Below are positions 1,873 through 19,977 of a stretch of DNA of 64,000 nt, piece by piece (the first letter of the stretch is position 1; each line of letters begins with the position of its first letter). Under the pieces are notes generated by a model, which saw nothing but the letters and a program-made list of their open reading frames with translations, did not search any database and had not been told where the DNA came from. The stretch spans positions 1 to 64,000 of the forward strand of contig JQIS01000005.1 of NCBI GenBank assembly GCA_000830175.1. Direction: 5' to 3'. The translations under genes were made by a program, and so were the position numbers. Source of the DNA: Sulfurovum sp. FS08-3. GTDB lineage: Bacteria > Campylobacterota > Campylobacteria > Campylobacterales > Sulfurovaceae.

Positions 1873-4455
1873 ATGAATAAACAACAATTAGCTGCCAAGA
1901 TTTGGGAATCCGCCAATCAAATGCGATCAAAAATAGAGGCAAATGAGTACAAAGATTATATTTTAGGATTTATATTTTACAAATACCTTTGCGACAAAGA
2001 GGAGCAGTTTGCGTTCAAAGAGGGGTATGCCAAAGAGGATTTGGTCAGCTTAAGCGAAGATGACAATGAAACGGTTGAGTATTTCAAAGAAAATATTGGT
2101 TTTTTTATCGCTTATGACAATCTCTTCTCTGCATGGATAAGGCTAGGGCGAGATTTTGATGTATCCAATGTACGGGATGCTCTATCGGCTTTTGAGAGGC
2201 ATATTAGCCCTGCTCACAAAAAACTCTTTGATGGTATTTTTACGACGTTGCAAACGGGGCTAAGCAAACTGGGTGAAAATGCCGCTTCGCAAACCAAAGC
2301 GATAAGCTCTCTTATTTATCTTATCAAAGATATTCCTATGAACTCCAAAGCCGATTACGATGTTTTGGGCTTCATTTATGAGTATCTTATCTCTATGTTT
2401 GCTGCAACTGCTGGTAAAAAAGCGGGGGAGTTTTATACCCCTCACGAAGTATCCGTACTTATGTCGGAGATTATCGCACACCATCTCAAAGATAAAAAAG
2501 AGATACAAATCTACGACCCCACAAGCGGTTCGGGATCACTGCTTATCAACATCGGTAACAGTGTCGCCAAACATATAGACAATGAAAACAATATCAAATA
2601 CTATGCCCAAGAACTCAAACAAAACACTTACAACTTAACCCGTATGAATTTGGTCATGAGAGGAATACTCCCTAGCAATATCGTGACACGCAATGCCGAT
2701 ACGCTTGAAGATGATTGGCCCTATTTTGATGAAAATGACCCTATTGGCACTTATAATCCCCTCTATGTTGATGCCGTCGTCTCCAATCCTCCCTACTCTC
2801 AAAAGTGGGACAACGAAAACAAAGAGTCCGATCCACGCTATAGCCGTTTTGGATTAGCACCCAAGACCAAAGCCGATTATGCCTTTTTGCTCCATGATTT
2901 GTATCACCTACGACCCGATGGTATTATGACGATTGTATTGCCTCACGGAGTACTTTTTAGAGGTGGCGAAGAGGGAGCGATACGAAGAAACCTTATAGAA
3001 CAAGGACATATTGATACCATTATCGGACTTCCTGCTAATATCTTCTTTGGGACAGGTATTCCTACTATCATCATCGTACTCAAACAAACAAGAGACAACA
3101 CCGATGTATTGATAATCGATGCTTCAAAAGGGTTTGAAAAAGTCGGCAAAAGCAATAAGCTTCGAGCCTCCGATATCAAAAAAATAGCCGATACGGTAAT
3201 CCATAGAGAGACGATAGAGAAGTACTCAAAAGTAGTAAGCCTCCATGAAATAAGAGAGAACGACTACAATCTCAATATCCCACGATACGTCGATAGTTCT
3301 GCACACGAAGAGAGCTACGATATTTATGCTACGATGTTTGGGGGAGTGCCTCAAAGTGAGATAAGTGAGCTTGATGCGTATTGGCAAAGTTTTCCTACTT
3401 TAAAAAATGATGTGTTTGATGATGTGGTAAGCCAATACACCCAACTCAAAACCGATAATGTCACACAAACCATCATGGAAAATGGCGATATACAAGCATT
3501 TATCACTCGCTTTAATACCTCATTTGAAACCTTGAATAGCTTTCTTAAAAAAGAGCTTTTGGAGCAGTGCCAGAGCCTAAAAATCCAAAGAGAGCAAACG
3601 ATACTAGCGAACGATATTTTTGCACGGCTTGAAAATACTCCGCTTATAGACAAATACGAAGCCTATCAAATCCTTGATGACAATTGGCATACCATAGCTA
3701 CCGATTTGGAAATCATCCAAACAGAAGGCTTTGAAGCTACTAATCAAGTCGATGCAAATATGGTTATAAAAAAGAAAAACGGCAAAGAGGTAGAGGAGCA
3801 AGAGGGTTGGAGGGGGCATATCATCCCTTTTGATTTGGTGCAAACTACTTATCTACAAGAGGAGCTTGAAGCTCTCAAAATCAAAGAGGAGAGACTCCTA
3901 GAAATCACCGCACTCTATGAAGAGATAGTAGAGAGTCTAAGCGAAGAGGAAAAAGAGCTAGAGATGGTCAAAGAGTCAAAAGATGGCTTTGTCAATGCCC
4001 AAGTAGCAAAAGAAGCGAAGCAAATCAGAGCGGAAATCAAGAAAAAAGTCACATTTGAAGAGGATAGTGTAGAGCTAAAAATCCTCACAGTCGATGAGCT
4101 AATAGCCCAAGAAAAAGCACTCAAAAAAGAGGTCAAAGAGGAGTCAATAGCCTTACATATAAATACCAAAAAAACAATAGAGAGCCTAAGCGATGTGCAA
4201 ATCTATGAACTATTGGAGCTAAAATGGATAAAACCTCTTGAAAATGAGCTAACCAAACTCCCCAATGGGATTATCAATACATTGGTAAACAAAGTGCAAG
4301 AGTTAGCCGTGAAATACGAAACAACCCTAAAAGATATAGAAGATGAGATAACAGCAACAAGCAAAGAGCTTTCCGTGATGGTCGATGAACTCGATGGCGG
4401 TGAGTTTGATATGCAAGGACTCAAAGCCTTTCAAGAGCTTTTAGGGGTGAAATAA
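1873..4455 (+). CDS. hsdM: Type I restriction-modification system, DNA methyltransferase subunit M
   Basis: HsdM transfers methyl groups from S-adenosylmethionine to adenine in the asymmetric site chosen by HsdS and is also part of the cleavage complex with HsdR. The N-terminal HsdM_N helical domain (about 1-140) is followed by the N6-adenine methylase core, with the SAM-binding motif DPTSGSGSLL near residue 215 and the catalytic NPPY at 305-308. At 860 residues it is longer than the usual ~500: the C-terminal part is glutamate/lysine-rich and reads as long coiled coil. A GAGGAAAG ribosome-binding site supports the start. The stop codon overlaps the next start (TAATG), so the genes are translationally coupled. 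Confidence 0.93.
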   Translation: MNKQQLAAKIWESANQMRSKIEANEYKDYILGFIFYKYLCDKEEQFAFKEGYAKEDLVSLSEDDNETVEYFKENIGFFIAYDNLFSAWIRLGRDFDVSNVRDALSAFERHISPAHKKLFDGIFTTLQTGLSKLGENAASQTKAISSLIYLIKDIPMNSKADYDVLGFIYEYLISMFAATAGKKAGEFYTPHEVSVLMSEIIAHHLKDKKEIQIYDPTSGSGSLLINIGNSVAKHIDNENNIKYYAQELKQNTYNLTRMNLVMRGILPSNIVTRNADTLEDDWPYFDENDPIGTYNPLYVDAVVSNPPYSQKWDNENKESDPRYSRFGLAPKTKADYAFLLHDLYHLRPDGIMTIVLPHGVLFRGGEEGAIRRNLIEQGHIDTIIGLPANIFFGTGIPTIIIVLKQTRDNTDVLIIDASKGFEKVGKSNKLRASDIKKIADTVIHRETIEKYSKVVSLHEIRENDYNLNIPRYVDSSAHEESYDIYATMFGGVPQSEISELDAYWQSFPTLKNDVFDDVVSQYTQLKTDNVTQTIMENGDIQAFITRFNTSFETLNSFLKKELLEQCQSLKIQREQTILANDIFARLENTPLIDKYEAYQILDDNWHTIATDLEIIQTEGFEATNQVDANMVIKKKNGKEVEEQEGWRGHIIPFDLVQTTYLQEELEALKIKEERLLEITALYEEIVESLSEEEKELEMVKESKDGFVNAQVAKEAKQIRAEIKKKVTFEEDSVELKILTVDELIAQEKALKKEVKEESIALHINTKKTIESLSDVQIYELLELKWIKPLENELTKLPNGIINTLVNKVQELAVKYETTLKDIEDEITATSKELSVMVDELDGGEFDMQGLKAFQELLGVK

Positions 4456-5486
4456 TGACATTGAGCACTACGGTAAATAACCAGATTATAGAAGATATTA
4501 AAAATCTTTTGATTATCTCCAGAACACAACTTCAGCAATCCGTCAATAGCGTTATGGTTCAAACCTATTGGCAAATAGGGAAGATGATAGTAGAAGATGA
4601 ACAAAAGGGAGAGAGTAGAGCCAAGTATGGCAAAAAGCAACTAGAACAAATCTCAAATGCTTTGACTGTGGAATTTGGAAAAGGTTTTGATACAACTAAT
4701 CTTAGAAATATGCGACGATTTTATCTCACTTTTCCAATTCAGGAGACACTGTCTCTCAAATTGAGTTGGAGCCATTATTGCAAAATAATGAGAATTGAAA
4801 ATCTAAATGCCAGAGATTGGTATATCAAAGAGACGATAGAAAACAATTGGAGCGTACGAGCATTAGAGAGACAGATAAGCGTACTTTATTATGAACGGCT
4901 TTTGTCGAGTAGTGAAAAAGCCCCAGTTATTGAGGAAGCAACTCAAAAAACAAATGAGCTACACATAGAGATAAAGCATTATCTTCGAGATCCCTATATC
5001 CTAGATTTTTTAAATCTACCAACCTCTTCGGTGATTGAAAGTACCATAGAACAAGAGCTTATAGACAATCTACAGCATTTTTTGCTTGAACTGGGTCGTG
5101 GTTTTGCCTTTGTGGCTAGGCAACAACGCCTTTGTGTTGAGGGGGAGGATTTTTATATTGATTTGGTGTTTTACAACTTCAAAGTCAAATGCTTTTTGCT
5201 TATAGATTTGAAGCTAGGCAAACTCACCCATCAAGATGTGGGGCAGATGGATACCTATGTGCGAATCTATGATAAGTTCCACAAAAACGATGATGATAAT
5301 CCCACTATCGGGCTGATACTTTGTAGCGAGTCCTCTCAAGCAGTAGCAAAATACTCCGTGCTAAGTGAGAGCAAACAACTCTTTGCCTCCAAATATCTGC
5401 CATTTTTGCCCACCGAGGAGGAGCTAAAAAGAGAGCTTGTAAGAGAGCGAAATATGATAGAAAATAGGGTGGCATATGACAACTAA
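4455..5486 (+). CDS. DUF1016/YhcG-family PDDEXK nuclease-domain protein
   Basis: This 343-residue protein matches the YhcG (DUF1016) pattern: an N-terminal helical DUF1016 domain (about 1-170, with a YWQIGK motif near residue 35) and a C-terminal PD-(D/E)XK-like domain containing FYIDLVFYN and LIDLKLGKL, then GQMDTY. These carry the acidic and lysine residues expected of the nuclease core. Such proteins are frequent in restriction and other defence islands, often inside type I operons as here, but their role is not established. It overlaps hsdM by one base and hsdS by eleven, so it is made together with the methylase complex. Confidence 0.85.
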   Translation: MTLSTTVNNQIIEDIKNLLIISRTQLQQSVNSVMVQTYWQIGKMIVEDEQKGESRAKYGKKQLEQISNALTVEFGKGFDTTNLRNMRRFYLTFPIQETLSLKLSWSHYCKIMRIENLNARDWYIKETIENNWSVRALERQISVLYYERLLSSSEKAPVIEEATQKTNELHIEIKHYLRDPYILDFLNLPTSSVIESTIEQELIDNLQHFLLELGRGFAFVARQQRLCVEGEDFYIDLVFYNFKVKCFLLIDLKLGKLTHQDVGQMDTYVRIYDKFHKNDDDNPTIGLILCSESSQAVAKYSVLSESKQLFASKYLPFLPTEEELKRELVRERNMIENRVAYDN

Positions 5487-6684
5487 AAGCAAAGTGCCAC
5501 ACATTCGTTTTGGAGGGTTTAGTGGGGAGTGGGATAATATAAAATTTGATGAGTCATTTACAAATATTCCTAATAACAATCTATCAAGAGCAGAGCTAAA
5601 TTATGAATCAGGTTTAGCCAAAAATGTACATTATGGCGATGTTCTAATCAAATTTGGAGAATTATTAGATATTGAAAAAGAAAAAGTTCCATTTATTTCT
5701 AATAATGATTTTGTAGTTAAATTCAAATCCTCAAGACTTCAAAATGGTGATATGATTATTGCAGATGCAGCTGAAGATGAAATGGTAGGCAAATGCACTG
5801 AAATAGTAAATATAAATGATGAAATGGTTTTTTCAGGATTGCATACCATTGCAATAAGACCAACCAATGAATTTGCATCAAAATATCTTGGTTACTATAT
5901 GAATTCATCTTCATACCATAATCAACTTTTACCATTACTACAAGGTACGAAAGTATTGTCAATTTCTAAATCGACAATAAAAAACACAGAAATACTTTTC
6001 CCAAAAGAACAAGCCGAACAAACCAAAATCGGCGACTACTTTCAAAAACTAGACAAACTCATAGAGCAAAAAGAGAAAAAATACCAAAAGCTTAAAGAGT
6101 TTAAAAAAGCGATGCTAAGTAAGATGTTTCCAAAAAATGGAGCGACTATTCCTGAGATACGATTTGGAGGGTTTAGTGGGGAGTGGGAGGAGAAGAGTTT
6201 GGGGGATATTTCAAAAATTACAACAGGTAAATCCAATAGAGAAGATTCTGGAATAAATGGAAAATATACTTTTTTTGACCGTTCTGATGACATTAGAACA
6301 AGTGATATTTATCTCTTTGATTGTGAAGCAGTAATTGTTGCGGGGGAAGGTTCAGACTTTGTGCCTAAATATTTTATTGGAAAATTTGATTTACACCAAC
6401 GAACATATGCAATAATGAATTTTGAGCTGTTAGACGGTAAATTTTTGTTTTACTACATACACCTTTTTAGAAAGTATTTTTTAGGTCAGGCAGTTGGCTC
6501 TACGGTTAAATCTTTAAGATTACCAATGTTTCAAGAAATGCCTATTAAATTTCCTGAAAAAGCCGAACAAACCAAAATAGGCAACTACTTCCAAAAACTA
6601 GACAGTCAAATAGAATTACAACTTCAAGAGCTACAAAAACTAAAAAACATCAAAAAAGCATCGTTAGCTAAGATGTTTGTGTAA
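5476..6684 (+). CDS. hsdS: Type I restriction-modification system, specificity subunit S
   Basis: HsdS chooses the DNA target of the HsdM/HsdR complex. The 402-residue product has the expected two-fold layout: target-recognition domain 1 (about 10-175), a central helical spacer ending the first half (EQTKIGDYFQKLDKLIEQ), target-recognition domain 2 (about 230-360) and a matching C-terminal helix (EQTKIGNYFQKLDSQIE). Each half starts with the same FGGFSGEW segment, encoded by an identical 26-bp DNA repeat. The recognised sequence cannot be predicted from sequence alone. A near-identical copy of the last 121 bases lies downstream at 7587-7707. Confidence 0.93.
   Translation: MTTKSKVPHIRFGGFSGEWDNIKFDESFTNIPNNNLSRAELNYESGLAKNVHYGDVLIKFGELLDIEKEKVPFISNNDFVVKFKSSRLQNGDMIIADAAEDEMVGKCTEIVNINDEMVFSGLHTIAIRPTNEFASKYLGYYMNSSSYHNQLLPLLQGTKVLSISKSTIKNTEILFPKEQAEQTKIGDYFQKLDKLIEQKEKKYQKLKEFKKAMLSKMFPKNGATIPEIRFGGFSGEWEEKSLGDISKITTGKSNREDSGINGKYTFFDRSDDIRTSDIYLFDCEAVIVAGEGSDFVPKYFIGKFDLHQRTYAIMNFELLDGKFLFYYIHLFRKYFLGQAVGSTVKSLRLPMFQEMPIKFPEKAEQTKIGNYFQKLDSQIELQLQELQKLKNIKKASLAKMFV
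5509..5534 (+). repeat. 26-bp direct repeat in hsdS, copy 1
   Basis: Identical to 6163-6188. It encodes the FGGFSGEW segment that opens the first target-recognition domain, so homologous recombination here could swap recognition domains in frame. Confidence 0.85.
6163..6188 (+). repeat. 26-bp direct repeat in hsdS, copy 2
   Basis: Identical to 5509-5534. It opens the second target-recognition domain of hsdS, in the same frame as copy 1. Confidence 0.85.
6564..6684 (+). repeat. 121-bp direct repeat: 3' end of hsdS
   Basis: Aligns without gaps, with only a few substitutions, to 7587-7707. It covers the C-terminal conserved helix of hsdS through its stop codon. The two copies flank the RhuM-HKD gene. 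Confidence 0.85.
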
Positions 6685-6697
6685 ATAGGGGGGCAAA

Positions 6698-7534
6698 ATG
6701 TCGGATGTGGTAGTGTATGAAAGTGGTGAACTGGAGCTTAAAGTATCCGTGGATAGTGATACTATTTGGCTCACTCAAAAGCAAATAGTTTCGCTATTTG
6801 AATCAAGCAAGGCAAATATTAGTGAGCATATAAAATCTATCTACAGCGATAATGAGCTTGATAAAATCTCAACTGTTCGGAAATTCCGAACAGTTCAAAA
6901 AGAGGGAAATAGAGAGGTTTCAAGAGAGGTAGAGCATTATAATCTTGATATGATTATCTCGATAGGTTATAGGGTAAATAGTAAAAAAGCCACAAAATTT
7001 AGACAATGGGCAACATCAGTTTTAAAAGAGTATATCGCTAATGGTTATGCAATCAATAGTGAGAAAATGACACAACAAAGATTATCGATACTAGAAAGTG
7101 ATGTAAACCGTATCAAGTCTCATATCAAAAACAACACTTTGGAGTTAAAGCAAGGAGTCTTTTATAATGGACAAATATTTGATGCTTATGCTTTTGTGGT
7201 GGATATTATAAAAAGTGCTACAAAAACCATAACTCTTATCGATAACTACATAGACGAAACCACACTTACAATGCTTTCAAAAAATAAGACAGCAAATATT
7301 ACAGTTGTTTCTTATACTTTCTCAAAAGAGTTAAAATTGGATATAGAAAAATACAATAAACAATACAAAGCTTTAAGAACTATCACAAATAAGAGTTTTC
7401 ACGATAGATATTTGATTATTGATAGCAATAGAGTTTATGCCGTGGGGGCTTCTTTGAAAGATGTAGGAAACAAAACTTTTAATGTGAATCTTATGAGTGA
7501 TTTTTGTGAAGATGATATTTTGGGCGGTCGATAA
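6698..7534 (+). CDS. RhuM-like protein with C-terminal phospholipase D-type (HKD-like) domain
   Basis: The 278-residue protein starts with a RhuM-like DNA-binding region (about 1-130): IWLTQKQIVSLF, an NISEHIKSIY helix and FRQWAT, features shared with the next RhuM gene. A helical linker follows, then a domain (about 150-278) with HDRYLIID, an HxRx4D version of the HxKx4D motif of phospholipase D-type nucleases, and a following VGASLKD. Its role is unknown; a nuclease or DNA-binding accessory of the restriction system is an inference. GGGGGG just ahead of the ATG serves as ribosome-binding site. The gene is bracketed by the 121-bp hsdS repeats, so it travels inside the hsdS shuffle region. 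Confidence 0.7.
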   Translation: MSDVVVYESGELELKVSVDSDTIWLTQKQIVSLFESSKANISEHIKSIYSDNELDKISTVRKFRTVQKEGNREVSREVEHYNLDMIISIGYRVNSKKATKFRQWATSVLKEYIANGYAINSEKMTQQRLSILESDVNRIKSHIKNNTLELKQGVFYNGQIFDAYAFVVDIIKSATKTITLIDNYIDETTLTMLSKNKTANITVVSYTFSKELKLDIEKYNKQYKALRTITNKSFHDRYLIIDSNRVYAVGASLKDVGNKTFNVNLMSDFCEDDILGGR

Positions 7535-7707
7535 TGTTGCGAAATAATGATTTAAAAGAAGTTGATTTGCTTTATCCATCAAAAAACGAACAAACCAAAA
7601 TAGGCAACTATTTCCAAAAACTAGACAATCAAATAGAGCTACAACTTCAAGAAATTGAAAAACTAAAAAACATCAAAAAAGCATCATTGGCTAAGATGTT
7701 TGTGTAA
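7534..7707 (+). pseudogene. hsdS 3' fragment (57 codons)
   Basis: The frame opens with an ATG overlapping the stop of the preceding gene (TAATG) and encodes the end of a target-recognition domain (NNDLKEVDLLYPS) followed by the conserved HsdS C-terminal helix (EQTKIGNYFQKLDNQIE...LAKMFV). The helix part is nearly identical to the end of hsdS upstream, but the preceding recognition-domain residues differ. It is therefore a remnant of another hsdS allele. It may be inert, or a spare cassette that could be recombined into hsdS through the 121-bp repeat. Confidence 0.8.
7587..7707 (+). repeat. 121-bp direct repeat: second copy of the hsdS 3' end
   Basis: Same length as 6564-6684, no gaps, a few substitutions. 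See the hsdS fragment for its coding content. Confidence 0.85.
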
Positions 7708-7717
7708 AGGCAAAAAA

Positions 7718-8713
7718 GTGATACAAAACTCTCAAATCCTTATCTACCAAACAACCGATGGTAAAACAAAAATAGAGACACGACTCGAAAACGAGACAGT
7801 CTGGCTAAGCATCGAGCAGATGGGTGAGCTTTTTCAAAAAAGTCGCTCAACCATCAATGAGCATATTCTCAATATCTATAAAGAAGAGGAGCTTGAAGAG
7901 AGTCAAACCATGAGAAAAATCGGAATTTCCGATTTTTCTACCAAGCCCACAAATTATTATAATCTTGATGTGGTGATATCGGTGGGGTATCGAGTGAAGT
8001 CTTTGCAGGGGACTAAGTTTCGCCAATGGGCAACCGCACGACTCAAAGAGTACATCATCAAAGGCTTTGCCATGGATGATGAAAAGCTCAAAAATCTAGG
8101 CGGTGGCAACTATTTTGAGGAGCTTTTGGCTCGTATAAGAGATATTCGCTCAAGCGAAAAGGTATTTTGGGCAAAAGTGCTGGATGTCTATGCCACAAGT
8201 ATCGACTATGACCCAAAATCTGAACTCTCAATCACATTTTTTCAAACCGTACAAAACAAAATGCACTGGGCAGTCCATGGCAATACCGCCGCAGAAATCA
8301 TCTACAAAAGAGCCGACAGTACCAAAGATAACATGGGGCTTCTAAGCTTCAAAGGGGAGATACCGACAAAAGCAGAGAGTCAAATCGCCAAAAACTATCT
8401 TGATGAAAAAGAGCTAAATATTCTAAACCGTATGGTAACTGCCTATTTGGAAGTAGCGGAGATCCAAGCTATGAATCAAGAACCGATGTATATGAAAGAC
8501 TGGATAGAGAGACTTGATGGCTTTTTGAAGATGACAGGTAAAAATATCTTAGAAAATGCAGGTACCATTAGCCACGACAAAGCAATACAAAAAGCTCATG
8601 ACGAGTACCAAAAGTACAAAGAGAACCAAAAAAATTCTCTTACAAGAGGTGAAAAAGATTTTTTAAACTGTATAGACTCAGTAACAAAAACACTTAAAGG
8701 TGGTAAAAAATGA
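7718..8713 (+). CDS. rhuM: RhuM-family protein
   Basis: The product (331 residues from the GTG chosen here) has the full RhuM layout: an N-terminal winged-helix-like region (VWLSIEQMGELFQKSRSTI), the YYNLDVVISVGYRV and FRQWAT motifs, and a C-terminal half with NKMHWAVHGNTAAEIIYKRA and a DWIERLDGFL segment. RhuM proteins were first noticed in Salmonella pathogenicity islands and are common next to restriction genes; no biochemical role is established. The frame is open back to a TTG at 7700, but the GTG at 7718 lies about 7 bases after AAAGG and is preferred. Its stop originally overlapped an hsdR start (ATGA); see the insertion at 8704-9037. Confidence 0.8.
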   Translation: MIQNSQILIYQTTDGKTKIETRLENETVWLSIEQMGELFQKSRSTINEHILNIYKEEELEESQTMRKIGISDFSTKPTNYYNLDVVISVGYRVKSLQGTKFRQWATARLKEYIIKGFAMDDEKLKNLGGGNYFEELLARIRDIRSSEKVFWAKVLDVYATSIDYDPKSELSITFFQTVQNKMHWAVHGNTAAEIIYKRADSTKDNMGLLSFKGEIPTKAESQIAKNYLDEKELNILNRMVTAYLEVAEIQAMNQEPMYMKDWIERLDGFLKMTGKNILENAGTISHDKAIQKAHDEYQKYKENQKNSLTRGEKDFLNCIDSVTKTLKGGKK

Positions 8714-8718
8714 CATTT
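8704..8718 (+). repeat. Left duplication flanking an inserted toxin-antitoxin cassette
   Basis: TAAAAAATGACATTT here recurs at 9022-9037 (with one extra A) at the true start of hsdR. The left copy keeps a dead hsdR start codon overlapping the rhuM stop (ATGA). It looks like a duplication made when the intervening ~319 bp entered. Confidence 0.6.
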
Positions 8719-8741
8719 GTGAGTACATTGAAGTTTTGTGT

Positions 8742-8747
8742 TATAAT
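8742..8747 (+). promoter_or_regulatory. -10 box of the small antitoxin-like gene
   Basis: TATAAT 26 bases ahead of the ATG at 8773, followed by an AAAGGATAAG ribosome-binding site. The cassette therefore has its own promoter inside the restriction operon, which may also help transcribe hsdR. Confidence 0.5.
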
Positions 8748-8772
8748 TGCTAAATTTGATAAAGGATAAGCG

Positions 8773-8976
8773 ATGCATACCATGACATTAAGTTACGAAG
8801 ATGAAGCAACCAAAGAGAAGATAATGCTTTTTGTCAATAATTTTTTGAGAGAAAAAGTTGAAGTAAGTGATATTGAAGATATAAAAGATTTATTGCTTAT
8901 CGACGAGGCAAAAAAAGAAAATTTACCCAATATAAGTTTTGAAACCGTTTTAAAAGAGTTTGGTTGTGAAAATTGA
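8773..8976 (+). CDS. Small antitoxin-like protein
   Basis: An acidic 67-residue protein (NNFLREKVEVSD, then a C-terminal SFETVLKEFG helix) with the size and tail of antitoxins that pair with RelE/ParE toxins. A putative toxin reading frame begins inside its last codons, as is typical for such pairs, but stops after 11 codons. The gene has its own promoter and sits in the segment inserted between rhuM and hsdR. The antitoxin assignment is inferred from size and arrangement only; no domain was securely recognised. Confidence 0.5.
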   Translation: MHTMTLSYEDEATKEKIMLFVNNFLREKVEVSDIEDIKDLLLIDEAKKENLPNISFETVLKEFGCEN

Positions 8977-9001
8977 GATAAATGCAAAGGCGTACAAATA
9001 A
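8966..9001 (+). pseudogene. Truncated RelE/ParE-type toxin start (11 codons)
   Basis: A GTG overlapping the antitoxin-like gene's end opens VKIEINAKAYK and then a TAA. The residues look like the first beta-strand and helix start of RelE/ParE toxins. If so, the toxin has been lost and only the antitoxin is left. The call is short and tentative. Confidence 0.4.
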
Positions 9002-9022
9002 AAATAATGATGATAAGTAGAT

Positions 9023-9037
9023 AAAAAAATGACATTT
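9023..9037 (+). repeat. Right duplication flanking the inserted cassette, overlapping the hsdR start
   Basis: Run of A followed by ATGACATTT, matching 8704-8718. This copy carries the start codon used by hsdR. Confidence 0.6.
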
Positions 9038-12000
9038 ACAAGCGAAGCAGAGTTTGAAAAGGCTTTTATAGGAGTTTTGAGGGAGTGTGGTTGGGGTGAA
9101 TATCCTATTATCAAAAATCCAACAGAGGAGGATTTGCTTCAAAACTGGGCAAATATACTCTATGAAAACAACAAAGGGATAGATAGATTAAACACTATCC
9201 CTCTTACAAAGAGTGAAATGGCACAAATCATCGAGCAGATAAATGCTCTCAAAACGCCGCTTAAACTCAATGGCTTCATCAACGGCAAAACCGTAAGTAT
9301 CACAAGAGACAATGCGCTAGACACCCTACACTACAGCAAAGAGATAAGTCTCAAAATGTACGATAGACGAGAAATAGCCGCAGGGCAAACCCGTTATCAG
9401 ATTGTGCAACAACCCATATTTAAAACCAAATCAAAAATTTTAAACGACCGTAGAGGCGATGTGATGTTGCTTATCAACGGTATGCCCGTCATTCATATCG
9501 AACTCAAAAAAAGCGGAGTGCCTGTAAGTCAAGCCTATAATCAAATAGAAAAATACTCAAGAGAAGGTGTATTTACGGGGTTTTTTGCTTTGGTGCAGAT
9601 ATTTGTAGCAATGGAGCCAGAGGAGAGTCTCTATTTTGCCAATCCTGGGATGGATGGAAGATGGAACAAGGATTATTATTTCCATTGGGCGGATTTCAAT
9701 AATGAACCCATCAATAACTTCAAAGATGTCGCCTCTACACTGCTAAGTATCCCTATGGCTCATCAGTTGATTGGTGACTATACAGTGCCAGATGATGCCG
9801 ATGGAGTCTTAAAAGTAATGAGAAGCTATCAGTACTATGCAGCCAACGCTATAAGCGATAAAGTCGGCAAGATAAAAGATTGGAAGAGCAAAAACACCTT
9901 AGGCGGGTACATTTGGCACACCACAGGAAGCGGTAAGACGATGACGAGTTTCAAATCCGCCGAGCTGATAGCCAACTCCAAAGATGCCGATAAGGTGATA
10001 TTTTTGATGGATAGGATAGAACTAGGGACGCAATCTCTTCTTGAATATCAATCTTTTGCAGAGGATAAAGATGATGTACAAGCGACCGAAAATACGGGGG
10101 TGTTGGTGACGAAGCTCAAAAGTAGCGACCCCCAAAACACACTCATTGTCACCTCTATCCAAAAAATGAGTCGGATAAATAGCGAAGAGGAGGGACTCAA
10201 AGCCAAAGATTTGGAACTTATGAGCAATAAAAGAGTGGTCTTTATCGTCGATGAGGCACACCGTTCTACTTTTGGGAGTTCCGCCCAAAGCGATAAAGAT
10301 GGTATGCTCATCACTATCAAAAAGACATTTCAAAATGCCATCTTTTTTGGTTTTACAGGCACTCCAATACACGAAGAAAATAAAAAGAAAGATAGTACAA
10401 CAGCCACAGTTTTTGGAGATGAACTTCACAGATACAGCATAGCCGATGGAATACGAGATAAAAACGTACTGGGGTTTGACCCGTACAAAGTGCTTACTTA
10501 TAAAGATAAGGACTTAAGAGAAGCTATAGCCTTACAACAAGCAAAAGCAAACGATGCACAAGAGGCTCTAAGTGATGAGAAAAAGAAAAAAGTATTTCTC
10601 AAATATATGAACGAAGTCAAAATGGCAGGAGATAAAGACGAAGCGGGTAAATACATCAAAGGGATAGAGGATTTTGTACCCAAAGCACAATACGAGAGAG
10701 ATGAACATAGAAACAAGGTAGTCGAAAATATCGTAGATGGGTGGATGACGCTTAGTCAAAATTCTAAATTTCATGCCATTTTTGCGACAAGCAGCATTCC
10801 CGAAGCGATAATGTATTATAGGCTACTCAAAGCCAAAGCACCAGAACTTAAAGTGACGGCTTTGTTTGATTCGACTATTGATAATGAGGATGGAATCTCA
10901 ACGGCATTTAAAGAAGAGGGATTGGTGGAGATTTTGGAAGATTACAACCAAAGGTACGGACAAGATTTTTCGCTCAAAAACTTCCCAAAATTCAAAAAAG
11001 ATATTGCTTCACGACTTGCCCATAAAAAACCCTATATCACCCTAGAAAAGAGTCCCCAAAAACAGATAGATTTGCTTATTGTGGTCGATCAAATGCTTAC
11101 AGGGTTTGATTCAAAGTGGATTAATACGCTCTATCTCGATAAACTCCTAGAATACGCCAATATCATCCAAGCTTTTTCGAGAACCAATAGGCTTTTTGGG
11201 ATAGATAAACGATTTGGTACTATCAAATACTACCGATACCCCCATACCATGCAAGCCAATATCAATAGAGCCATCAAACTCTATTCGGGCGATAAACCAC
11301 TGGGACTCTTTGCCGATAGGCTAGAGAGTAATCTCAAAAAACTCAATGGCATTTTTGATGAAATTGATGAACTCTTTGAAAATGCCAAAATCGAAAATTT
11401 TGAAAAACTCCCCGATGATAGGGCGGAAAAGGGTAGATTTGCTCAGTTGTTTAAAGCGTTTATCGAGACACTGGAGGCTGCAAAAATCCAAGGGTTTGTG
11501 TGGGGCAAACAACCTCTTGAGCTTGATGAAAACATCTATCATATTTTGCTGCAACGCTACAAAGAACTCTCGCAAATGGGTCAAAGAGATGGTGAGAGTA
11601 TGGATATTGCTTTTGAAATTGATGGCTACATCACCCAAATAGATACCGACAAAATCGATACGGATTTTATGAACTCACGATTTGATAAATATCTCAAAAC
11701 TTTAACAAGTGGCAATCCAGAAGAAATTGAAAAAAGACTCAATGAACTCCATAAATCGTTTGCGACATTAAGCCAAGAGGAGCAAAAGTATGCTAATATT
11801 TTCATCCACGATATCCAAAGCGGAAACATTCAAATAGATGAGAACAAATCTTTTAAAGAGTATATTGCTCAGTATCAAGCCAATGCAGAAGATGAGCAAA
11901 TTGCTGAACTCGTTGCGTTATTGGGACTCGATGGAGCAAAACTTAAAAAGATGTTGGGTAGCCCAATCAATGATACCAATATCAATGATTACGGTCGTTT

Positions 12001-12139
12001 TGATGAGCTAAAAAACAGCGTGGATAAAGCCAAAGCCAAAGCCTATTTTGAAGAGCTTGAAGGATGCACCATCCCTATCCCAAAGGTCAATAGGAGAGTT
12101 CATAATCGACTCAAAAAGTTGCTTTTGCAAAGGCAATAG
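9029..12139 (+). CDS. hsdR: Type I restriction enzyme, restriction/translocation subunit R
   Basis: HsdR translocates DNA using ATP and cuts it far from the recognition site when the site is unmethylated. The 1036-residue product has the expected order: an N-terminal PD-(D/E)XK nuclease (GDVMLL near 143, then HIELKK near 160), a helicase domain with Walker A TTGSGKT near 301, the DEAH box (IVDEAHRS) near 403 and FGFTGTP near 435, a second RecA-like half containing DQMLTGFDSKW, and a helical C-terminal domain that binds the M/S core. It is intact, so the type I system is likely functional. Confidence 0.95.
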   Translation: MTFTSEAEFEKAFIGVLRECGWGEYPIIKNPTEEDLLQNWANILYENNKGIDRLNTIPLTKSEMAQIIEQINALKTPLKLNGFINGKTVSITRDNALDTLHYSKEISLKMYDRREIAAGQTRYQIVQQPIFKTKSKILNDRRGDVMLLINGMPVIHIELKKSGVPVSQAYNQIEKYSREGVFTGFFALVQIFVAMEPEESLYFANPGMDGRWNKDYYFHWADFNNEPINNFKDVASTLLSIPMAHQLIGDYTVPDDADGVLKVMRSYQYYAANAISDKVGKIKDWKSKNTLGGYIWHTTGSGKTMTSFKSAELIANSKDADKVIFLMDRIELGTQSLLEYQSFAEDKDDVQATENTGVLVTKLKSSDPQNTLIVTSIQKMSRINSEEEGLKAKDLELMSNKRVVFIVDEAHRSTFGSSAQSDKDGMLITIKKTFQNAIFFGFTGTPIHEENKKKDSTTATVFGDELHRYSIADGIRDKNVLGFDPYKVLTYKDKDLREAIALQQAKANDAQEALSDEKKKKVFLKYMNEVKMAGDKDEAGKYIKGIEDFVPKAQYERDEHRNKVVENIVDGWMTLSQNSKFHAIFATSSIPEAIMYYRLLKAKAPELKVTALFDSTIDNEDGISTAFKEEGLVEILEDYNQRYGQDFSLKNFPKFKKDIASRLAHKKPYITLEKSPQKQIDLLIVVDQMLTGFDSKWINTLYLDKLLEYANIIQAFSRTNRLFGIDKRFGTIKYYRYPHTMQANINRAIKLYSGDKPLGLFADRLESNLKKLNGIFDEIDELFENAKIENFEKLPDDRAEKGRFAQLFKAFIETLEAAKIQGFVWGKQPLELDENIYHILLQRYKELSQMGQRDGESMDIAFEIDGYITQIDTDKIDTDFMNSRFDKYLKTLTSGNPEEIEKRLNELHKSFATLSQEEQKYANIFIHDIQSGNIQIDENKSFKEYIAQYQANAEDEQIAELVALLGLDGAKLKKMLGSPINDTNINDYGRFDELKNSVDKAKAKAYFEELEGCTIPIPKVNRRVHNRLKKLLLQRQ

Positions 12140-15831: not shown

Positions 15832-16029
15832 TTAAAGCATATTTCTTGTGAATCTTCTTTAATACTGTATTATACCAAATGGGGATTTGAAAGTAGGTTA
15901 AAGCAGGTAAACTAATGGCACTCACATACCAACAATTATACCAAATGGGGATTTGAAAGTAGGTTAAAGCCTATGTTTTCTGATGTTATGTCTATCTTGA
16001 TTATACCAAATGGGGATTTGAAAGTAGGT
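15827..16029 (+). CRISPR. Short cas-less CRISPR array, three spacers
   Basis: Two complete 36-bp repeats (15869-15904, 15935-15970) and a third copy lacking its last six bases (16000-16029) are preceded by a 12-bp repeat end (15827-15838). The repeat starts ATTATACC and ends GTAGGTTAAAGC. The three spacers are 30, 30 and 29 bp (15839-15868, 15905-15934, 15971-15999) and unrelated to each other. Repeat and spacer lengths fit type II arrays, but subtype cannot be fixed without cas genes and none lie in the window. Both ends are degenerate, so this looks like a relic or an orphan array served in trans. Confidence 0.85.
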
Positions 16030-16059
16030 AGGGCGGTGCTGTAATTAAACTTTATTCAC

Positions 16060-16142: not shown

Positions 16143-16397
16143 GTGGATAACAAACCTCAAAAACCCAGACAAAAAACGGTAGTACTCTTCACCTCTCCCA
16201 CTTGTAAATGGTGTAGCGTAGCCAAAAATTACTTCAAATCCAACGATATTAAATTCAAAGCCATTGACATTACCAAAGACAAAAAAGCAGAGTATGATTG
16301 CCTAGCCCACGGATGCCGTGGAGTACCCGTCATTATGATAGGCAGCCAATGGATTTGCGGATTTGACGAGAAGAAGATTAAACGGGCGTTGGGATAG
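16143..16397 (+). CDS. Glutaredoxin-like thiol-disulfide protein
   Basis: An 84-residue thioredoxin-fold protein: first strand TVVLFTSPTC, active-site CKWC (about residues 20-23), cis-proline motif GVPVIMI and a final GFDEKKI helix as in glutaredoxins. Such proteins reduce disulfides or glutathionylated proteins in the cytoplasm. The start is a GTG behind AGGAG. It is one base from the ATPase gene, so it leads the operon. Confidence 0.85.
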   Translation: MDNKPQKPRQKTVVLFTSPTCKWCSVAKNYFKSNDIKFKAIDITKDKKAEYDCLAHGCRGVPVIMIGSQWICGFDEKKIKRALG

Positions 16398-16398
16398 T

Positions 16399-17430
16399 AT
16401 GCAACTAGAACTCCAAAACATCGGTATGATCAAAGAAGCAAAGGTTACTATCGATGGGCTTACTGTGATTGCTGGGGAGAATGATACGGGGAAGAGTACA
16501 TTAAGTAAAGCATTGTTTTATGGATTAACTATTATTAGAGAAGTTCAATCCAATGCTAGTGATGGAAAATTAACAACTGTTGACTACCCAACTGTTTTAG
16601 CTTGTACAGATATATTTAAAGTTGATATTTTACAAGGAATAAATGTAGAGTATTTAAAAAATTCAATTATCGAACTAACTATTAATGGACAAACAATAAA
16701 TCCCAAATTACTATCAGGAGCAAGTGCAACACAAATAAACGATAAAGTCAAAAATATGACAATTCCAGAGGCTATTTTTATAGAAACTCCATTAGTGTGG
16801 AATTTTTCAGATTTTTTTCGAGATATTGCTCAAATAGAGTCTCAAATGAGAATTAAATTAAATTACCCATTTTTAATGAAAGATTTAAACTTTAAGCTTC
16901 ATATCAAAAGTGCTTCTGATGGAGTCGATATTAAGAAGCAGATGACTGAGCTTATGGGTGGCGAGTTTAAAAAAGATGAGATGGGTCGTTACTATTTTGA
17001 CAAACAAGGTCAGAAAATTGATTTAGTTAATACCGCTACAGGAATCAAAACCTTTGGTATTTTTCAAGTACTTTCTCAAAACAATTGGCTTAATCAAGAT
17101 ACTGTTTTAATCCTCGACGAACCCGAAGTACACATTCATCCAAAATGGCAACTTGAAATGGCAAAAGTGATTGTGGATTTGGTAAAAAATGGGGTGAAAA
17201 TAGTGGTTAATTCTCATAGTCCTTATATGATAGAAGCACTTAAACGCTACAGTGATAGAGCAAACTTGCAAGATAAAACCAATTTTTATTTAGCGCAAGA
17301 TGGATTTATAAAAAAAATCAATGATAGCAATTCACAAACACTAGTTTCTATTTATGAAAAACTCTCTGAACCTTATGATATTTTTGAAGAGATGGATAGT
17401 CAAAGATTGGAAAAGTTTATCAATGGCTGA
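16399..17430 (+). CDS. AAA (ABC/OLD-like) ATPase, candidate defence-system component
   Basis: A 343-residue ATPase of the RecF/OLD-like group. Walker A GENDTGKS lies at 26-33, the Walker B LILDEPE motif with D240/E241 follows a long insertion, and an H-loop NSHSPYM starts at 271. The insertion between the Walker motifs is only about 200 residues, so no long SMC arm is present. There is no Toprim domain, unlike full OLD nucleases. An earlier in-frame start at 16363 lies inside the glutaredoxin-like gene; ATG 16399 fits the first beta-strand (MQLELQNIG). It overlaps the downstream nuclease-like gene by 8 bases, so the two are probably an ATPase-effector pair. The DNA looks richer in A+T than the flanking housekeeping genes. 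Confidence 0.8.
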   Translation: MQLELQNIGMIKEAKVTIDGLTVIAGENDTGKSTLSKALFYGLTIIREVQSNASDGKLTTVDYPTVLACTDIFKVDILQGINVEYLKNSIIELTINGQTINPKLLSGASATQINDKVKNMTIPEAIFIETPLVWNFSDFFRDIAQIESQMRIKLNYPFLMKDLNFKLHIKSASDGVDIKKQMTELMGGEFKKDEMGRYYFDKQGQKIDLVNTATGIKTFGIFQVLSQNNWLNQDTVLILDEPEVHIHPKWQLEMAKVIVDLVKNGVKIVVNSHSPYMIEALKRYSDRANLQDKTNFYLAQDGFIKKINDSNSQTLVSIYEKLSEPYDIFEEMDSQRLEKFING

Positions 17431-17959
17431 CTTTAATCTTTTTTATCAAGAGTATAAACCTTTTATCTCGACTTTCAAAGAGACCAGTTATGATGGTGAC
17501 AATAATTTCTATCTATGCACGAATGAAAGCATTGAAGTCATCAATTTTGATGCAATTGTAGAAAAAATATATCCCGATTCAAATATTAGACCAAAATCTT
17601 TCGATACTATTTACTTTGACAAAACCAATCATTGCATCTATCTAATCGAATTTAAAAACCAAAAAAAACCTGACAAACAAGAGATTGAAGAGAAATTAAC
17701 CGCTGGGAAAAAAGAGTTTGATTCACTATTAAACCAGTTAAATATCTCTAAAAATAGTTATAAATTTGTATTTTGTTTGGTGTATAATAAATATATACCC
17801 AAAGAAGAACGGCACAAGAGGGGATTGTTTAAAAGTATTACCTTTGAATTTTTGAACAAATATAAAGAAAACTCTTTTGTCAATGATATTTACACAGAAG
17901 ATGTATCATTTTTTACAACACAATTCAAAAAAAATTTACAAAAGGAATTAATATGTTAA
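17423..17959 (+). CDS. Putative PD-(D/E)XK nuclease-like partner of the ATPase
   Basis: A 178-residue protein with no family securely recognised. Residues 55-80 read FDTIYFD...IYLIEFKNQ, a hydrophobic strand with D61 followed by E76-x-K78; this is the spacing and setting of the PD-(D/E)XK nuclease core. The rest is helical and lysine-rich. The ATG at 17423 overlaps the ATPase stop region by 8 bases, and the gene overlaps glyQ by 7, so it is bound into the operon. Together with the ATPase it resembles two-gene antiphage systems (ATPase sensor plus nuclease), but it matches none that I can name. Confidence 0.6.
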
Positions 17960-18837
17960 CATTTAGCCAACTACTCCTAAAACTTCAAGAGTTTTGGGCA
18001 AATCAAGGGTGCAATATCGTACAGCCTTATGATATACCAGCAGGTGCGGGGACGTTTCATCCCGCTACACTTTTACGCTCACTCGATAGCAAACCGTGGA
18101 GCAGTGCCTATGTAGCACCCTCTCGTCGTCCAACAGATGGAAGATACGGTGAAAACCCTAATCGTTTGGGAGCCTATTATCAGTTTCAAGTGCTTATTAA
18201 GCCCTCTCCCGATGATATTCAGGCGTTGTATCTCAAATCGCTTGAGTATATTGGACTTAATCTAAAAGAGCATGATATTCGTTTCGTAGAAGACAACTGG
18301 GAGTCACCAACTCTTGGTGCGTGGGGGCTTGGTTGGGAAGTTTGGCTTGATGGTATGGAGGTGACGCAATTTACCTATTTTCAACAAGTGGGCGGACTCG
18401 TATGTGACCCCGTAGCAGTAGAGATTACCTATGGGACGGAGCGATTGGCTATGTATCTTCAAGGAGTGGAGAGTGTCTTTGATATTGTATGGAACACAAA
18501 CGCACACGGCACAACAACCTATGGGGATGTACACAAAGAGAGCGAGTATGAGTTTAGCAAATACCACTTCGAGGTAGCCTCAACCGATAAGCTTTTAAGA
18601 GATTTTGAAGAGAGTGCAAAAGAGTGCAAAAAAGTTCTTGAAGCAGGATTGCCACTCCCCGCTTATGACCAATGTATGATAGCCTCTCATGCTTTTAATG
18701 TTTTGGATGCACGAAAAGCTATCTCACAAGCCCAAAGACAAAACTATATTCTCAAAATTCGTGAACTCTCCAAAGGGTGTGCCCAGCTCTATAAATCACA
18801 AGAATCCCAGCGGGAAGATAGAGTGAGAGCCAAATAG
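17953..18837 (+). CDS. glyQ: Glycine-tRNA ligase, alpha subunit
   Basis: GlyQ is the catalytic subunit of the heterotetrameric bacterial glycyl-tRNA synthetase, which charges tRNA-Gly. The 294-residue sequence matches the family over its length, with [15 protein letters not shown] at the start, [16 protein letters not shown] and the [18 protein letters not shown] block. The beta subunit gene glyS is not in this window. The start codon lies within the end of the nuclease-like gene, and its ribosome-binding site AGGA is inside that coding sequence, so an essential gene is translationally tied to the ATPase-nuclease pair. Confidence 0.96.
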
Positions 18838-18867: not shown

Positions 18868-19077
18868 ATGCAGACATTACATTTGCAAGCTGAAGATACT
18901 GTAATTGATAAAATTATGGATATGATTAATCAGTTTGCACTAAAGGGTAAGAAGGTTGAACTTCTAGATAGTGTTACATTGGATGTAGAGAGTCAGATGA
19001 TTGTCAAATCTCTTCAAGAAGAGAAGCAAGGTAAGACGATAGAACACGATACATTGTGGGATGAGCTTTTAAACTAA
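18868..19077 (+). CDS. Antitoxin of a RelE/ParE-type toxin-antitoxin pair (pair 1)
   Basis: A 69-residue acidic protein ending in HDTLWDELLN. It directly precedes a RelE/ParE-type toxin gene with no gap (TAA then ATG), which is the basis of the call. The N-terminus LHLQAEDTVIDKIMDMIN resembles the start of pair 2's antitoxin. A TATAAT box and an AAAGGGG ribosome-binding site lie in the 30 bases upstream, so the pair has its own promoter. Confidence 0.65.
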   Translation: MQTLHLQAEDTVIDKIMDMINQFALKGKKVELLDSVTLDVESQMIVKSLQEEKQGKTIEHDTLWDELLN

Positions 19078-19377
19078 ATGAGAATAATCTATACCCAAAG
19101 TGTCAAAAGCCAACTGTATAAAATTAAAGAGTATATTACACGAGATAGCAGAGAAATTGCTTTAAGACATTTGAAAAACATTAAAAGTAAAATTGAACTG
19201 ATAGGAAAATATCCTTATATTGGTAAAGTCAATACAACAGCCAATAATCCCAGTATTCGAGATTTCGTAATTTTGGGTTACAAGGTTATCTATAAAGTCA
19301 ATGAAAAATCAATAACCCTATTGGCAATTTATAAATATATTGATTTTGATGAGTCATCTTTGGAGGAGATAGGGTAA
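19078..19377 (+). CDS. RelE/ParE-family toxin (pair 1)
   Basis: The 99-residue protein has the typical plan of the family: a first strand (IIYTQSVKSQL), two helices, a basic strand pair around IRDFVILGYKVIYKV, and a final hydrophobic strand. ParE members poison DNA gyrase and RelE members cut ribosome-bound mRNA; which applies cannot be told from sequence. It abuts the antitoxin gene. Confidence 0.8.
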   Translation: MRIIYTQSVKSQLYKIKEYITRDSREIALRHLKNIKSKIELIGKYPYIGKVNTTANNPSIRDFVILGYKVIYKVNEKSITLLAIYKYIDFDESSLEEIG

Positions 19378-19442: not shown

Positions 19443-19712
19443 ATGCAAACCATTCAACTGCAAATTGATGATGATATTTATGAGTCTATCAAGCAACAAG
19501 GTATTGATTTAAAAGCCAAAGTTTATGAGCTTATTGATGGGCTTGTGGATGATGGCTATCCCTCTATCTCAACGGATGAAGCCAAAAAGAGAGTAGCTAA
19601 TGCCGTTGAACGCTATCGAAGCGGTGAGGGTCGTTACTATGATGAAAATGAGTACCGTGAGCATAAAATCAATACTATTGAAAAGCTAAAAATCAAGTAT
19701 GCAAACAGTTAG
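19443..19712 (+). CDS. Antitoxin of a RelE/ParE-type toxin-antitoxin pair (pair 2)
   Basis: An 89-residue protein with a short N-terminal strand (IQLQIDDDIYESI) and a long charged C-terminal helix containing VERYRSGEGRYYDENEY, the kind of tail that wraps a toxin. An AAAGGAGAA ribosome-binding site precedes it. It overlaps the toxin gene by 14 bases. Confidence 0.65.
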   Translation: MQTIQLQIDDDIYESIKQQGIDLKAKVYELIDGLVDDGYPSISTDEAKKRVANAVERYRSGEGRYYDENEYREHKINTIEKLKIKYANS

Positions 19713-19977
19713 AAGCGATAAATATCTACACGAACTTGATTTGCATCTTGAATATATAGCAAAAGATAGTTTGAATAGAGCATTAAACTTTTTGGATAAA
19801 CTTGATAAGAGTATTGAAACTCTACCCGATATGCCTTATCGCTGCAGGGCTTCATACTATTATGATGATAAAAAGATTCGTGATTTGATCTTCAAAGGCT
19901 ATACCATTCCCTATTTGATTGATGAAATTCAAAATAAAATTGTACTATTGGATATTTTTAAATGGAGTGAGCGGTAG
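19699..19977 (+). CDS. RelE/ParE-family toxin (pair 2)
   Basis: A 92-residue toxin with LEYIAKDSLNRALNFLDKL and a conserved RDLIFKGYTIPYLID segment, as in ParE-like toxins. It overlaps the antitoxin upstream. The two pairs lie side by side but their proteins are only distantly alike, so tandem acquisition is more likely than recent duplication. Confidence 0.78.
   Translation: MQTVRSDKYLHELDLHLEYIAKDSLNRALNFLDKLDKSIETLPDMPYRCRASYYYDDKKIRDLIFKGYTIPYLIDEIQNKIVLLDIFKWSER

Follow-up and report, generated by a model that had tools for sequence, protein, structure and literature searches.

A two-gene cassette lies between a glutaredoxin-like gene and glyQ

Two overlapping forward-strand genes separate a glutaredoxin-like gene from glyQ in the window, the whole 64,000-nucleotide stretch of Sulfurovum sp. 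FS08-3 DNA analysed here. The upstream gene (16399..17430; ATG at 16399, stop at 17430) encodes a 343-residue OLD/Rad50/PtuA-like ABC ATPase, the proposed sensor and switch, and the downstream gene (17423..17959; ATG at 17423) encodes a 178-residue predicted PD-(D/E)XK nuclease of type 1, hereafter the effector. The left flank of the site is formed by the glutaredoxin-like gene (16143..16397, forward strand), which carries a CKWC motif and matches Pfam Glutaredoxin (2.5e-13), and the right flank by glyQ (17953..18837, forward strand), the gene of the glycyl-tRNA synthetase alpha subunit (Pfam tRNA-synt_2e, 1.3e-139). A single base lies between the end of the glutaredoxin-like gene (16397) and the ATPase start, the ATPase and effector genes share 8 bases (17423–17430), and the effector gene reaches 7 bases into glyQ, which starts at 17953. 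The coordinates, motifs, gap and overlaps given in the original prediction all match the re-read sequence. The higher A+T content that it attributed to the pair is also found, the G+C fraction being 0.318 in the ATPase gene and 0.270 in the effector gene, compared with 0.424 in the glutaredoxin-like gene, 0.444 in glyQ and 0.405 across the window.

Type I restriction genes occupy 1873–12139 of the window, some 4 kb 5' of the pair, and are interleaved with the PADLOC candidate families PDC-S02 (4455–5486) and PDC-S05 (6698–7534 and 7700–8713). Closer to the pair, three CRISPR-like 36-nt repeats (ATTATACCAAATGGGGATTTGAAAGTAGGTTAAAGC) with spacers of 30 and 29 nt are found at 15869–16035; the third repeat is degenerate at its end, and these are the sole copies in the genome. 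Directly 3' of glyQ are two small gene pairs (18868–19377 and 19443–19977) that by eye resemble ParE/RelE-type toxin–antitoxin modules.

The ATPase retains intact nucleotide-binding motifs around a hypervariable insert

The ATPase matches the Pfam families AAA_15 (5.5e-14) and AAA_21 (2.4e-13), as well as the PADLOC profiles HEC-02A (2.5e-28, residues 2–291) and PD-T4-4_A (9.3e-28), although the two PADLOC matches are not specific, as many other ATPase families are also matched. Its AlphaFold model (pLDDT 89, pTM 0.89) has its best Foldseek fold match in PtuA of Septu and retrons (9e-9) and also matches Rad50 (6e-8). Among 49 homologues, the Walker A motif GENDTGKST (residues 26–34; 16474..16500) is invariant at G26, N28, D29, G31, K32, S33 and T34, the Walker B motif VLILDEPE (residues 236–243; 17104..17127) at D240, E241, P242 and E243, and the H-loop SHSPY (residues 272–276, including H273; 17212..17226) at all five residues. 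The invariant motifs and the ABC fold recovered by Foldseek identify an OLD-type ABC ATPase with intact motifs for ATP binding and hydrolysis; Pfam, Foldseek and motif invariance thus bear out the assignment to the OLD/RecF type that had been made from GENDTGKS, LILDEPE and NSHSPYM.

By comparison, an insert at approximately residues 45–122 (16531..16764), the proposed recognition region, is hypervariable. Column conservation in the insert is 0.14–0.30, versus 0.8–0.9 around the P-loop and Walker B, and its mean pairwise identity is 0.09 over 54 pairs. Between two genomes of the same genus, nucleotide identity collapses at 16500–16790. The dN/dS ratio is 0.12 for one close pair of ATPases and 0.12–0.16 between effector homologues, and the pair is under purifying selection.

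The effector is a predicted PD-(D/E)XK nuclease

Searches of Pfam, PADLOC, NCBIfam and PDB sequences returned no significant match for the effector; 4ffl (E 0.031), considered as a solved structure by sequence, was judged a chance match. In its AlphaFold model (pLDDT 84, pTM 0.82), the core elements follow the order alpha-beta-beta-beta-alpha-beta, as in PD-(D/E)XK enzymes. Foldseek found nothing better than E 0.05 for this model, and the best of these non-significant neighbours are mostly PD-(D/E)XK superfamily nucleases (arenavirus and bunyavirus cap-snatching endonucleases, Hef/Mus81, BspD6I, Card1, BstEII and HamA), which is supportive of a nuclease fold but not proof. Residues S22, D43, D61, E76, F77, K78 and K91 do not vary among 56 sequences whose identity falls as low as 19%. 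D43 (codon 17549..17551) precedes D61 (17603..17605), the first acidic residue of the nuclease motif, which is located just ahead of the model strand 62–66, and E76-F77-K78 (17648..17656) form the ExK motif within the model strand 71–78. The gene adjacent to and downstream of the ATPase gene thus encodes a small predicted PD-(D/E)XK protein whose active-site residues are conserved, the Foldseek matches being non-significant. The modelled core and the invariant residues agree with the small PD-(D/E)XK-like partner with D61 and E76-x-K78 that had been predicted, and the model has a nuclease fold rather than the non-nuclease fold that would have spoken against it. The absence of an HNH or Toprim partner is likewise upheld, as the effector has no HNH, PtuB, Toprim or AriB match in Pfam or PADLOC.

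Four effector types can be distinguished by their motifs, namely type 1 (EFKN, as in the window), type 2 (EFKSS), type 3 (EFKD) and type 4 (GCC..EEKS). Types 1–3 are alignable and share invariant D, D and ExK residues, and type 4 shares the residue pattern only; hhalign detected no homology of type-4 to type-1 effectors (probability 0.2%). A cysteine about 11 residues ahead of D43, C32 (17516–17518), is conserved in at least 90% of the 56 sequences, and a cysteine of this kind is present in nearly all type 1–4 effectors and absent from clostridial relatives. Many effectors, also at loci away from glyQ, end in L-x-C.

The ATPase and the effector form a real pair

Scanning one genome per species, we found 51 effector loci, mostly in Sulfurovum, Sulfurimonas, Sulfuricurvum, Arcobacteraceae and Nautiliaceae; the remaining few are in Beggiatoa-type gammaproteobacteria, Advenella and Clostridia. 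Many of the sampled genomes are metagenome assemblies, and effector types 2–4 were sampled through the ATPase search. The ATPase gene lies directly upstream at 47 of these 51 independently found loci, and the other four are contig edges or decayed copies, indicating that the pairing is real. Class-wide, such an ATPase occurs in 8 of 150 genomes at E 1e-25. Directly downstream of the effector is glyQ at 27 of the 51 loci, and the other 24 are elsewhere, as in the orders mraY-[pair]-murD in Sulfuricurvum (L113) and rsmG-[pair]-guaA (L159), in which gene names were assigned by eye. Cassettes away from glyQ often stand alone among housekeeping genes, without a clear defence island. At L143, L150 and L152 in Sulfurimonas and Sulfurovum, several successive ATPase fragments look like tandem arrays in decay.

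The glyQ site is a hotspot of cassette turnover

The region 5' of glyQ was read in 75 relatives and in the window's own genome. The usual order at an empty site is purE-(grx)-glyQ. An ATPase cassette, intact or reduced to remains, was found at 28 of the 68 sites that could be read, and the remaining 40 are empty; beyond these, two sites hold other inserts, two genomes have glyQ elsewhere and four sites lie at contig edges. Parsimony on the glyQ tree, which is weakly supported with few strong branches, requires at least 11 changes of occupancy, of which four are forced by strong branches. Stacks contain as many as three cassettes (L093) and bring together two ATPase classes with several types of effector. 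With 28 sites occupied and 40 empty, the pair is not a housekeeping module, and a universally conserved Campylobacterota module, which the original prediction had named as its own counter-case, is contradicted by the same counts and by the 8 of 150 class genomes. Our comparison reveals the glyQ site as a hotspot, new here, at which cassettes are gained, lost, stacked in tandem and reshuffled; the literature collection searched yielded no paper on a glyQ hotspot. The site is a simple marker for finding more Campylobacterota effectors, given that its empty and filled states can be read directly and that the ATPase scaffold or its cousin already occurs with at least four types of effector.

The junction of the cassette with glyQ is shown by AAAAGGAATTAATATGTTAA (17940..17959, forward strand), which encodes the effector tail (..K-E-L-I-C-stop) together with the glyQ Shine-Dalgarno sequence and start codon. 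At most empty sites, glyQ begins M-N-x-x-x-[IL]TFS. Where the cassette is one of the main type-1 group, and at a single type-3 site, glyQ begins with ATG or GTG directly ahead of LTFS, and the longer start is kept with a second type-1 group and with the other types. The junction sequences indicate that the main type-1 cassettes supply the ribosome-binding site and start of glyQ. The tail of the junction is kept in three decayed copies, which have an internal effector deletion (L062), an ATPase remnant (L072) or an effector broken by stops (L079). The empty and decayed sites indicate that the module can be lost. The earlier proposal that coupling to glyQ prevents loss of the module is at odds with these decayed copies and with the at least 11 changes of occupancy. 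Rather than the whole module, the last codons of type-1 cassettes may be locked in.

The ATPase is a mosaic whose C-terminus tracks the effector

Between the window's genome and G004, another species of the same genus, the glutaredoxin-like gene and glyQ are about 87–99% identical in nucleotide sequence, and identity collapses in two blocks, one covering ATPase residues ~35–130 and the other taking in the ATPase C-terminus and the entire effector. Effector genes in this genus share only about 50% identity. The closest relative found for the effector (82% identity) lies at a different locus in Sulfuricurvum, where the ATPase is 50% identical overall and reaches 0.70–0.85 in the last three bins. 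Effector identity over 54 pairs is correlated with the identity of the C-terminal ATPase segment 285–340 (17251..17418), the proposed effector-docking part (Spearman 0.82, or 0.81 as a partial correlation with the ATPase core held constant; Mantel p 0.0005), in contrast to the insert 45–122 (Spearman –0.03; partial –0.21). The correlation could arise from genetic linkage alone, because the segment adjoins the effector gene. These comparisons establish, as a new observation, that effectors are interchangeable and that the ATPase is a mosaic in which the C-terminus tracks the effector and the insert does not. With dozens of alleles in which the insert and the effector module vary separately, specificity could be mapped by segment swaps.

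A proposed immune cassette and its alternatives

We consider it likely that the pair is a two-gene innate immune cassette, in which a sensing ATPase controls a nuclease that arrests the infected cell, and that such cassettes are exchanged at the glyQ site. The module would probably act by abortive infection, and its anti-phage role is suggested by kinship: the defence reading draws on the likeness in design to the tested WonAB system and on the type I restriction genes and PADLOC candidates upstream in the window. The hypervariable insert would recognize some sign of infection, and the C-terminal end of the ATPase may bind the effector, as suggested by the C-terminus/effector correlation and by the WonAB model. 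Upon triggering, an ATP-driven change, to which the invariant motifs point, would release or activate the small nuclease. The nuclease would then cut cellular nucleic acid, with an RNA involved in translation as the likelier target by analogy with WonB, and the infected cell would be arrested before phage are made. Recombination through the core flanking genes may replace whole cassettes, or the insert and the effector separately.

A restriction-like system that degrades phage or plasmid DNA entering the cell, instead of an RNA-acting abortive system, is a less likely reading that nevertheless deserves weight. DNA endonucleases make up most of the PD-(D/E)XK nucleases, and the closest folds of the ATPase, those of Rad50 and PtuA, engage DNA. 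Against this, no methylase or other self/non-self partner lies beside the pair, and WonB of WonAB, nearest in design among tested systems, halts translation with DNA left intact (PMC12137116). The same system bears on the improbable reading of a selfish toxin–antitoxin or addiction module, in which the ATPase would restrain a nuclease toxin, the module would be kept because its loss harms the cell or the expression of glyQ, and defence against phage would play no part. Two overlapping genes with one small putative nuclease fit such a module, as do the takeover of the glyQ ribosome-binding site and start by type-1 cassettes and the tail kept in three decayed copies. However, the supposed antitoxin is a full ABC ATPase with a hypervariable insert that would be unexpected in a plain antitoxin, 40 of the 68 sites are empty and loss is thus tolerated, and the WonAB ATPase is needed for toxicity, which speaks against simple neutralization (PMC12137116).

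That the effector is no nuclease at all, but a degenerate PD-(D/E)XK fold used only for binding, appears still less probable. The effector lacks a significant structural match, and type-4 effectors share the motif pattern without detectable homology to type 1, yet D43, D61, E76 and K78 are invariant down to 19–26% identity, and a dead fold would not keep them. Least credible is a housekeeping or regulatory pair that belongs with glyQ and serves DNA repair or the tuning of glycyl-tRNA synthetase, for which translational coupling to glyQ and the Rad50-like ATPase fold could be cited. In the family, 40 of the 68 sites that could be read lack the pair, as do 142 of 150 class genomes, 24 of the 51 loci are not directly before glyQ, and within one genus the effector genes are about 50% identical as compared with about 87–99% for the glutaredoxin-like gene and glyQ; the housekeeping reading is largely refuted.

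Building on the immune-cassette reading, we tentatively extend it to the site itself, with a chance that we put slightly below even. The glyQ site may act as a chromosomal docking station, at which the insert and the effector/C-terminus unit are swapped independently and cassettes are stacked up to three deep, yielding a sensor-by-effector repertoire without mobile-element genes, with some cassettes anchored through the ribosome-binding site and start of an essential gene.

Comparison with known ATPase–nuclease systems

The original prediction regarded the pair as a candidate new defence system, but the same two-gene design is present in WonAB, in the OLD-ABC ATPase + Novel REase class (PMC12137116), in PD-T4-4 and in PADLOC HEC-02. 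WonAB, an anti-phage system of the Vibrio cholerae WASA-1 prophage, consists of an OLD-type ABC ATPase followed by a small PD-(D/E)xK protein; it requires both genes, the ATPase motif residues and the effector ExK lysine, and it aborts infection and shuts off translation while DNA is left intact, the ATPase being required for effector toxicity (PMC12137116). Compared by published description, our pair shares with WonAB the gene order, the Walker A lysine, the Walker B glutamate, the H-loop histidine and the ExK lysine of the effector. In addition, WonB was modelled on C-terminal extensions of WonA (PMC12137116), and the effector here is likewise proposed to sit on the ATPase C-terminus, on the basis of a correlation for which linkage alone could suffice. 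The differences are that WonA is about 57 residues longer between Walker A and Walker B (E300–K34 versus E241–K32, in the residue numbers of the paper for WonA), and that WonAB resides in a prophage and our pair on the chromosome before glyQ. The OLD-ABC ATPase + Novel REase class of an in silico survey (Krishnan et al. 2020, cited in PMC12137116) has, as described there, the same architecture as our pair, and is said to cover all WonAB homologues and to occur in 0.96% of genomes.

The pair ranges widely, as its clostridial relatives (L162 and L163) show. Searches of phage and plasmid collections gave no effector match, and gave ATPase matches on two plasmids and a single faecal phage-like contig, each followed by a small ExK protein. 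These are contig MT835532, which also has a relaxase-like gene (L167, 2950–4876), an Acinetobacter plasmid (L166, 1532–3563) and the small mobilizable Klebsiella pneumoniae plasmid pMB6975_2 (5.9 kb; L168, 1619–3584), in which the ATPase and a hypothetical ExK-motif protein lie directly 3' of the replication gene.

HEC-02 (PADLOC, 'Hma-embedded candidate'), on which no paper turned up in the literature collection searched, resembles our pair in its 340-residue ATPase, its ExK partner of 170–173 residues and its overlapping genes (L164 and L165). The two HEC-02 pairs (L164, 486–2013; L165, 1486–3013) lie between aminotransferase-like and surface-sugar/polysaccharide genes, another cassette wedged into an operon. 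BLASTP aligned the HEC-02 ATPase with ours over 94 residues only (27%), and the effector had no match to HEC-02B at E 1. The HEC-02B models each matched, weakly, 1 of 25 relatives of the effector (best 0.0014), one a type-2 and one a type-4 effector, at E of about 0.001–0.01. Membership of HEC-02 by profile was rejected, since HEC-02A is matched and HEC-02B is not. The same holds for PD-T4-4 of Escherichia coli, an AAA_15 ATPase plus PD-(D/E)XK nuclease that protects against phage (PMC9519451, PMC10952713): PD-T4-4_A is matched and PD-T4-4_B is not, and the PD-T4-4 ATPase profile is about 120 residues longer than our ATPase. Septu and retron PtuAB and PARIS AriAB similarly join an OLD/Rad50-like ATPase to a nuclease partner, but that partner is HNH (PtuB) or Toprim (AriB) rather than PD-(D/E)XK, and identity with Septu or PARIS was rejected as the effector matches neither kind.

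ATPase-plus-nuclease pairs are widespread. By analogy, the cassette would work like WonAB and PD-T4-4, and probably like HEC-02; it is probably a new branch of a recently described anti-phage kind, not a new category.
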